A stretch of DNA of 64,000 nt from an uncultured Paracoccaceae bacterium. Its GTDB lineage: Bacteria; Pseudomonadota; Alphaproteobacteria; Rhodobacterales; Rhodobacteraceae. Within the stretch, counting starts at the first letter, position 1; each line of letters begins with the position of its first letter. The stretch spans positions 1 to 64,000 of the forward strand of contig CANNFQ010000004.1 in the NCBI GenBank assembly GCA_947503925.1. Reading direction: 5' to 3'. The translations under genes and the position numbers were made by a program. Below the pieces are notes generated by a model. The model was given only the letters and a program-made list of their open reading frames with translations. It was not told the origin of the DNA and made no database searches. Below, one piece after another: positions 53,309 to 58,341 of the stretch.

Positions 53309-53722
53309 TCAATCCTCGACCTTGCCCCGCAGTGCCTTGACCGTGCTGCGGGCCTTCTTGGCATCCAATCGCCTGCGAATGGACCCTTTGGTCGGGCGGG
53401 TCGGGATGCGTCGCTTGGGTTTTTCACAGGCTTTGCTGATCAGTTCGGCCAGCCTTTCGCGGGCAATCTCGCGGTTTCGGGCCTGGCTGCGGGTGTCCTG
53501 TACAAACAGAACCAGTGCCCCATCCTGCGTCCAGCGGCGCCCGGCGAGGCGCTTTAGCCGGGCTTTCACGGGTTGGGGCAGGTTGGGGGACCGCTCGGCC
53601 TCAAACCGCAGTTCAACAGCCGTGGACACTTTGTTCACGTTCTGCCCGCCAGGGCCGGATGACCGGGTAAAGTTTTCGGTCAGTTCCCAATCGGCGATTT
53701 CTATCTGGTCATTGATCCGCAT
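53309..53722 (-). CDS. arfB: Peptidyl-tRNA hydrolase ArfB (ribosome rescue)
   Basis: FTRSSGPGGQNVNKVSTAVELRF; basic C-terminal tail. Confidence 0.95.
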   Translation of the reverse strand: MRINDQIEIADWELTENFTRSSGPGGQNVNKVSTAVELRFEAERSPNLPQPVKARLKRLAGRRWTQDGALVLFVQDTRSQARNREIARERLAELISKACEKPKRRIPTRPTKGSIRRRLDAKKARSTVKALRGKVED

Positions 53723-56555: not shown

Positions 56556-57233
56556 CTACCGCTTACCGTAGAAGTAACCGCCAAGTTCAGTGTTGTTGAA
56601 ACCAGCTGCAACCTCATCAGCGTTGCTGCCATAAATACCACCTTCGATATCCATCTCTGTCCCGTCGAAATCAACCCTGCCAGAGACGACACCGTTATTA
56701 TCCACGACGCCATAAACGTCGAGACGGGTATCCTCTGACGTACCAATCAACGTGTTATTGAAGAAGGCATATTGCAGATCCAGCGCACTGTGACCCGCGA
56801 TCGCGTTGTTTGCAGCCACGGTATAATGCCCCTGATAGGTGACATTGCCCGTTGGCAGGGCTTCTGTGGTGCCGTCGATGATTGAAAACGCATCTGCAAG
56901 GTTACCATCACCGCCGGCGGCTGCGACCATGACATCATCGCCAGTAAACAAAGCACCTGTGAATCCGGAGCTTCCCGTCAAAACCTGTTCTTCCCCGGCG
57001 ATGTTCCCCGCGGTTGGAACGTCGAGGTTGTCAAAAAAAGAACCGCTCTTCGTAAGACGGTATCCATCCCCGATAGTATAAGGGATGATCTCTCCACCAC
57101 TCACCGCCACTTCAACCGCGCGGCTGGACGCAGAGGTAACATTATCCGTGGCACTATCGGCAGCACCGTCGGAGCCGCCACCTGCACAAGCGGAAAGCAG
57201 GGACAGGACGGCGAGGAATGTCAGTTTCTTCAT
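56556..57233 (-). CDS. Transferrin-binding-like (TbpB-type beta-barrel) surface lipoprotein
   Basis: Lipobox LSLLSACAGGG; C-terminal GTEMDIEGGIYGSNADEVAAGFNNTELGGYFYGKR. Confidence 0.7.
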   Translation of the reverse strand: MKKLTFLAVLSLLSACAGGGSDGAADSATDNVTSASSRAVEVAVSGGEIIPYTIGDGYRLTKSGSFFDNLDVPTAGNIAGEEQVLTGSSGFTGALFTGDDVMVAAAGGDGNLADAFSIIDGTTEALPTGNVTYQGHYTVAANNAIAGHSALDLQYAFFNNTLIGTSEDTRLDVYGVVDNNGVVSGRVDFDGTEMDIEGGIYGSNADEVAAGFNNTELGGYFYGKR

Positions 57234-57454: not shown

Positions 57455-57485
57455 AAAAAGGGCCACCCCGGCGATGGGATGGCCC
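57455..57485 (-). terminator. Strong Rho-independent terminator of a small transcript
   Basis: Minus strand GGGCCATCCC-ATCGCC-GGGGTGGCCC-TTTTT. Confidence 0.85.
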
Positions 57486-57537
57486 TCTCCTGAATTTCGG
57501 AGGCGGGTCGGTTAGGGTTGCCCACCTTATGGTGTTC

Positions 57538-57603
57538 TCAGCCAAGGGCTGCCTTAGCTTTGACCCCCATAAGTTGTCCCGACACACTTCTCCAATACCT
57601 CAT
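57538..57603 (-). CDS. Candidate leader/small peptide MRYWRSVSGQLMGVKAKAALG (overlaps alternate GTG frame 57554-57610, MHHEVLEKCVGTTYGGQS)
   Basis: Preceded by GAAAGGAGGTGATCCAG (57626-57610) and followed by the terminator. Confidence 0.4.
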   Translation of the reverse strand: MRYWRSVSGQLMGVKAKAALG

Positions 57604-57699
57604 GATGCACTGGATCACCTCCTTTCAAAATGTTTCGCCTGATAGGGAGGTTGGCACAGATTTGGTATATTTCAAGTAAAAATATCGTACATTTCGTGT

Positions 57700-58341
57700 T
57701 TATGCGGTCTTGCGCTGCAAGCGCCCAACAATGATACGAAACGGGACTAGCGCAATCAAAGCGATTGACAGTTTCACACCCCAATCGGCCACGGCCAGCG
57801 ATACCCAAAGCGGGGCAATGGGTCCGGTGGTCAGAAACGGTATCGGGTCCTGGGCCCAGATCACCTCTTCCGCTGCCGCTGCGCTCAAGCCGTTGAACGC
57901 GGCCGCGAATGCGATTGAGAAGAAGATCACCGTATCAACTGTTGAACTGATCAGGGTGCTGCCGAGCGGCGCGGTCCACCAGGACCCGTCGCGCAGCCGG
58001 TTGAACACGGCGATATCCAGCAATTGTGCCACCAGAAATGCCGTGGCGGATGCAATCGCGATACGCAGTGCCACCGCCGGATAGGTGAACCCGTCGCCCT
58101 GCAACATGATCTGCGACCCGATCAGGGAACAGATGATCCCGACGACCAGACCGGCGAACACGACCTTCCGTGCGGCCGACACGCCGTAAACCCGGTTCAT
58201 GATATCGGTGACCAGAAAGGCCAGCGGATAGGTGAACGCCCCCCAGGTCAGTAACCCATCAAGGATCAGGAATTGCACAAGGATATTGGACGCCACAACA
58301 ATGGTGGTCATGGCGAGAACGCCGGGAAGGATACGTGTCAT
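57700..58341 (-). CDS. Queuosine precursor transporter (YhhQ family)
   Basis: FLILDGLLTWGAFTYPLAFLVTDIMNRVYG...VDTVIFFSIAF. Confidence 0.92.
   Translation of the reverse strand: MTRILPGVLAMTTIVVASNILVQFLILDGLLTWGAFTYPLAFLVTDIMNRVYGVSAARKVVFAGLVVGIICSLIGSQIMLQGDGFTYPAVALRIAIASATAFLVAQLLDIAVFNRLRDGSWWTAPLGSTLISSTVDTVIFFSIAFAAAFNGLSAAAAEEVIWAQDPIPFLTTGPIAPLWVSLAVADWGVKLSIALIALVPFRIIVGRLQRKTA

Follow-up and report, generated by a model that had tools for sequence, protein, structure and literature searches.

What is the short element that lies on the minus strand of an uncultured Paracoccaceae bacterium between two ordinary genes, and what might it do? Within the 64,000-nt stretch of DNA that we analysed (contig CANNFQ010000004.1 of assembly GCA_947503925.1; hereafter the window), it occupies about 187 nt, and all of the features given below lie on the minus strand. 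Read in that direction, the order is vut (57700–58341), a promoter-like block, GAAAGGAGGTGATCCAGTG, an 18-codon open reading frame (ORF) starting from GTG at 57610, a series of helices and an intrinsic terminator (GGGCCATCCC...GGGGTGGCCCTTTTT, 57485–57455). The upstream neighbour vut, coding for a Vut_1 transporter (Pfam PF02592), is found in this position in 151 of 157 relatives. Downstream, a lipoprotein-like ORF of 225 aa (56556–57233) separates the element from the genes that lead to arfB; a Pfam search with this ORF was without match, and a search of viral contigs with it gave no matches. A preliminary description had left the function between a ribosome-titrating RNA, a leader-peptide switch and the mRNA of a small protein.

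That description had drawn attention to the 17-nt sequence GAAAGGAGGTGATCCAG (57626–57610) as the complement of the usual 3′ tail of 16S rRNA. It proved to complement the 16S 3′ end of its own genome exactly, and a whole-genome search found copies only in 16S and in the element, where simple arithmetic gives an expectation of about 0.0006 chance copies in 4.75 Mb, both strands included. The predicted energy of pairing with the 16S tail was −29.7 kcal/mol, an ordinary strong Shine–Dalgarno sequence (SD) giving −10.7. The idea that the plus strand represents a 16S fragment was rejected, as identity to 16S stops at the end of the 17-mer. The weight placed on all 17 nt is too strong: in the alignment of the Rhodobacteraceae the strictly kept and best conserved part of the element is GAAAGGAGGTG, GATCCAG varies, and in several clades the complementarity is down to about 11 nt (GGAGGTGCTC, GGAGGTGCCA).

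Anchoring the Rhodobacteraceae set upstream of this super-SD gave the consensus TTTTGACA.acaC.aaatcTGTG.CA.ccT, in which TTGACA is followed after 16 nt by CANNNT. The window has a −35-like hexamer TTGAAA (57670–57675), which a consensus promoter scanner did not itself list, and a −10-like hexamer CAACCT (57648–57653) preceded by the extended −10 sequence TGTGC. Transcription would accordingly start at about 57641, some 15 nt 5′ of the super-SD. Upstream, a CCTCCC at 57650–57645 had been put forward as a possible partner of GGAGG, and the sequence is indeed there, but since it overlaps the putative −10 it probably lies 5′ of the start of the RNA and would not be transcribed.

The preliminary description had also made its reading depend on conservation in close relatives and had recommended a covariance search. 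Such conservation was found, so that this ground for refutation falls away: by blastn the element was present in 67 of 101 genera, and a covariance model built from 28 sequences matched 264 of 299 Rhodobacteraceae genomes, nearly all of them of different genera and usually with one copy per genome. Among 20 model-negative genera, a diverged copy was found directly upstream of arfB in five. These loci (L310, L312, L313, L314 and L315) have the head GAAAGGAGGTGCC(A/T)ATG and a peptide resembling MIIGKQEQLVKVTSG, again 18 codons long, with the stop in a hairpin of the GGGGGCAGCCCC type and, in some, two copies of CACCTCC.

An Rfam scan of the element gave no match at gathering level. At a relaxed threshold, RF01867 (CC2171) aligned over its full length (positions 1–159) with 35.9 bits and an E value of 2.6e-6; this score, like the 43.4 bits obtained for the relative L004, does not reach the gathering cut-off of 75 bits. 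Scores above the cut-off were obtained outside the family, in Rhizobium (91.5 bits), Brevundimonas (91.2) and Bosea (88.5), and in each of five family genomes scanned with RF01867 the sole match was the element. Across the wider class, the RF01867 model matched 68 of 291 genomes, 10 of them above the cut-off, and the head pattern GAAAGGAGGTGNTCNNRTGTC was present in 55 of 290 genomes, almost always once; G317 was the only genome in these pattern scans with two heads (C1:805112 and C1:2922049). The reversed control pattern had no matches in the 290 genomes, and the head was found in none of 136 sampled genomes of other proteobacteria. The covariance model of the element itself gave weak matches across the class, some of them real relatives and many near noise, and was not used alone as evidence.

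As far as the start codon, the element in the window is identical to the CC2171 type, sharing the head GAAAGGAGGTGATCC; codon 2 is CAT in the window and TCN in 146 of 157 relatives, the CC2171 type usually having TCT. The element further resembles CC2171 in being a single locus per genome, with a mini-ORF inside a long-range stem and a terminator directly after it. It differs in that the 5′ strand of the closing stem (the lock described below) is in Rhodobacteraceae the SD itself and not codons 2–6, that an anti-SD mimic stands in place of GACAATGG, that the ORF is fixed at 18 codons, and that the locus lies between vut and arfB. Judged by sequence comparison, the element is a sub-threshold, rearranged relative of CC2171, the Rhodobacteraceae form of an alphaproteobacterial CC2171-type RNA, and is not a member of the family by the Rfam criterion. 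This link is added here and had no part in the earlier interpretation. No function for CC2171 was found in the literature searched; the search returned the Rfam 15 paper, in which one covarying pair is added for CC2171 (PMC11701678), and a Mesorhizobium sRNA list in which it appears (PMC5596092), and found nothing further on it.

Two overlapping mini-ORFs had been described, one from GTG at 57610 and the other from ATG at 57603. Both are present in the window, but only the GTG frame (57610–57554, 18 codons and TAA; VHHEVLEKCVGTTYGGQS) is kept by relatives, stops falling within the 18-codon span in frame +1 in 55 and in frame +2 in 80 of 157 elements. The counts for the ORF come from 157 distinct Rhodobacteraceae elements, which are not phylogenetically independent, and are thus strong but inexact. 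The start codon was GTG in 152 and TTG in five, the length was 18 codons in 154, and the stop was TAG in 73, TGA in 55 and TAA in 29. In the remaining three (L048, L277 and L282) codon 19 is not a stop, and the ORFs have 24, 22 and 17 codons, respectively. When alignment columns were shuffled, a stop at codon 19 was obtained in 127 ± 3 elements (maximum 135), against the 154 observed, and in-frame stops numbered 14.7 ± 2.8, against one observed, although such shuffles overstate significance because the sequences are related. The stop lies in a stem of the form CT-RR-GG, where RR was AG in 51 elements, GA in 50 and AA in 23; GG, which would pair equally well and replace the stop by Trp, was never seen. 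Entropy at codon positions 1, 2 and 3 was 0.82, 0.86 and 0.84, and this equal variation does not point to selection on the peptide. A subclade with an unlike peptide (MIIGKQEQLVKVTSG...) retains the 18 codons, the stop in its hairpin and the CACCTCC. Of 30 relatives outside the family that were found by the Rfam model, not by the head pattern, 16 have GTG and 14 ATG as start codon, and the ORF is 18–26 codons long in 29; in a wider set, 106 of 109 have 14–27 codons. These comparisons indicate that the length of the ORF and its stop are under selection and the peptide is not.

The minimum free energy (MFE) of the window element gave z = −4.8 against shuffles. In the predicted structure, helix P1 joins GGAGGTG (57616–57622), in the super-SD, to CGCCTCC (57499–57505), an anti-SD mimic that reads CACCTCC in most relatives; this helix, the lock, comes from MFE folds and pair counts. 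P2 is a hairpin (TCCAGTGC / GTATTGGA, 57591–57614) that contains the start codon (helix 2, 95.4% of cells paired). P3 is a long-range helix (57507–57583) between GTCGG (57583–57579) and CCGAC (57511–57507), with two-sided changes at four of five pairs, and P4 (57526–57573) pairs CTTATGG (57573–57567) with CCATAAG (57532–57526), with such changes at seven of nine. The P5 hairpin GCTAAGG-CAG-CCCTTGGC (57541–57558; helix 5) contains the stop codon (57556–57554), which is the one kept against structure-neutral alternatives, and the terminator, present as first described, showed two-sided changes at nine of 10 pairs (helix 6). Over 100 sequences, 95.1% of pair cells were standard, against 88.2% after shuffling, 29 of 46 pairs had two-sided changes and the structure score was 0.323, against 0.06–0.08 for slid controls, part of this support leaning on a model-fitted alignment. 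The covariation is carried by P3, P4, P5 and the terminator. In P1 the changes are mostly one-sided, from GC to GU, because the SD strand is nearly invariant, and the covariation backing for P1 by itself is weak.

Pairing of the 3′ motif CCGCCTCC with GGAGG had been suggested before; the motif is present, at 57506–57499 rather than 57507–57499, and in predicted folds the anti-SD mimic closes the SD in 143 of 153 Rhodobacteraceae, codons 2–6 being closed in eight. Outside the family the predicted folds have the SD closed in three of 98 relatives; in 59 of the 98, codons 2–6 are closed by the segment preceding the terminator, a number that falls to 15–16 when this segment is shuffled. The partner of the lock is thus predicted to have moved between the two groups, and in both of them closure and initiation would exclude each other. 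That the predicted lock excludes initiation in both groups is our main ground for regarding the RNA as translation-gated, and from it we infer switching in the cell.

Taken together, the sequence evidence supports a small RNA gene in which a super-strong SD precedes a single mini-ORF that looks translated, and which ends in a terminator. The best explanation that we can offer for it, and the most likely reading, is a translation-gated small RNA, to which we would give an even chance of being correct. A ribosome could take the SD during transcription, before the 3′ anti-SD mimic exists, and in translating as far as the stop codon it would open P2 to P5 and leave the 3′ strand unpaired. Without a ribosome, or after its departure, the 3′ strand would close on the SD to form P1 and the RNA would be shut. 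What the gene delivers would be not the peptide but an RNA state, either open with a ribosome loaded or closed, and this state would set the stability of the RNA or the binding partners of its free strands. The switch in such an RNA is probably the binding of the ribosome itself; the RNA's transcription, translation, switching and output are what we infer from the features described. A point against a translated mini-ORF comes from ribosome profiling in Caulobacter, in which intergenic ncRNAs were reported as untranslated, CC2171 not being singled out in the main text (PMC4117421).

The genomic position of the element suggested a different role. An arfB-type release factor gene, identified in the window (53309–53722) by its GPGGQNV motif and tblastn matches, lies downstream on the same strand in 139 of 157 loci and starts within 350 nt in 131 of them; in most genera its start lies 222 nt (median) from the start of the element and about 46 nt after the U-run. 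This adjacency made attenuation our first favourite: translation of the mini-ORF would govern read-through of the terminator, and ArfB would rise when ribosomes are in short supply or stalled. The diverged copies retained just upstream of arfB in five further genera are in keeping with this, as is the lack of arfB in 10 of the 20 model-negative genomes, although this shared absence could reflect joint loss of the neighbourhood. However, arfB usually has no SD, and TANNNT is found at −12/−13 in 25 of 131 loci and over −22 to −12 in 33, against 12.3 ± 3.5 expected, and so the gene appears to give a leaderless mRNA from a −10 of its own directly before the ATG. Nor does the 5′ half of the element influence the terminator in folding, which formed in 136 of 151 full folds and 138 of 151 folds without that half, with no antiterminator seen. 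Finally, all 15 genomes tested that lack arfB at the locus carry the gene at some other place, some of them on a different contig, and their element is intact. In the window, too, arfB is 3.7 kb away with four genes between.

Outside Rhodobacteraceae the relatives are likewise not located near arfB, and their neighbours (named by eye) vary, including genes for RNase R and RF3, a DUF188-like gene and others. RNase R is encoded downstream at L091 and L108, and the DUF188-like gene lies downstream at L096, L103 and L206; the RF3 gene is upstream and divergent at L128, L142 and L185. Several of these neighbours function in RNA decay or in the termination of translation, which may be a coincidence. 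The leaderless-type −10, the outcome of the fold test and the arfB copies at other places demoted attenuation to a rival: the element is probably not the attenuator of arfB, and this explanation, along with the leader switch suggested earlier, if taken to act in cis on the following gene, is now unlikely. Known leader-peptide attenuators and dual-function sRNAs such as rnTrpL/peTrpL of Sinorhizobium (PMC10117765) likewise combine a small RNA, a short ORF, translation-tied folds and a terminator, but as a class the element is without a conserved downstream gene, antiterminator or conserved peptide, and arfB has its own promoter-like −10. The promoter-like block of the element, its retention without an adjacent arfB and the varied neighbours outside the family instead point to a free-standing small RNA gene, its transcription being part of the translation-gated model, which as a whole seems to us equally balanced between right and wrong. 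The strong association with arfB is not explained by that model.

A second rival is a 30S decoy, the super-SD binding the 16S tail, lowering the pool of SD-competent 30S subunits and favouring leaderless mRNAs such as that of the SD-less, leaderless-like arfB. The strength of the predicted 16S pairing and the conservation of GAAAGGAGGTG above all else fit this idea, which nevertheless is improbable and ranks below attenuation: clades with GGAGGTGCTC or GGAGGTGCCA manage with about 11 nt of complementarity, the exact 18-codon frame and its kept stop are not needed, and the element's own lock shuts the SD. Titration would, moreover, need the RNA in numbers near those of ribosomes. Lower again we place an sRNA that acts through its 3′ CACCUCC on the SDs of other mRNAs, its own SD being only a lock. 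The motif is kept in Rhodobacteraceae as CACCUCC, CAUCUCC or CGCCUCC, and alphaproteobacterial precedents with a CCUCC-type motif are known in SisA–D of Caulobacter (PMC12559287); unlike in those RNAs, the motif here is paired intramolecularly, in 143 of 153 Rhodobacteraceae, and so is not free. Most relatives from other families also lack it at this position, and a kept ORF would serve no need. Least likely is an ordinary small-protein mRNA with the 18-aa peptide as its product, since, for all that frame, start and stop are kept and the residues LE..VGT recur, there is no excess of synonymous changes, entropy is equal at the three codon positions, the peptide is wholly replaced at the same length in one subclade and replaced in other families too, and the residues that recur are encoded where the RNA is base-paired or invariant.

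Returning to the translation-gated RNA, it is possible, if somewhat doubtful, that CC2171-type RNAs form an alphaproteobacterial class of ribosome sensors, in which the act of translation is kept and the peptide is not. The lock would always exclude initiation, its partner having moved (codons 2–6 in most orders, the SD in Rhodobacteraceae), and the RNA would report the availability of initiation-competent ribosomes. The exact positions of start, stop and lock are now available for mutation. CC2171, long listed as a non-coding sRNA of Caulobacter, appears to be widespread in Alphaproteobacteria as a ribosome landing site followed by a mini-ORF of kept length and free sequence. Should the lock function as proposed, this would be a compact RNA that converts the loading of ribosomes into a state of its own, within a bacterial class rich in leaderless mRNAs and, in most Rhodobacteraceae, beside a gene for ribosome rescue.
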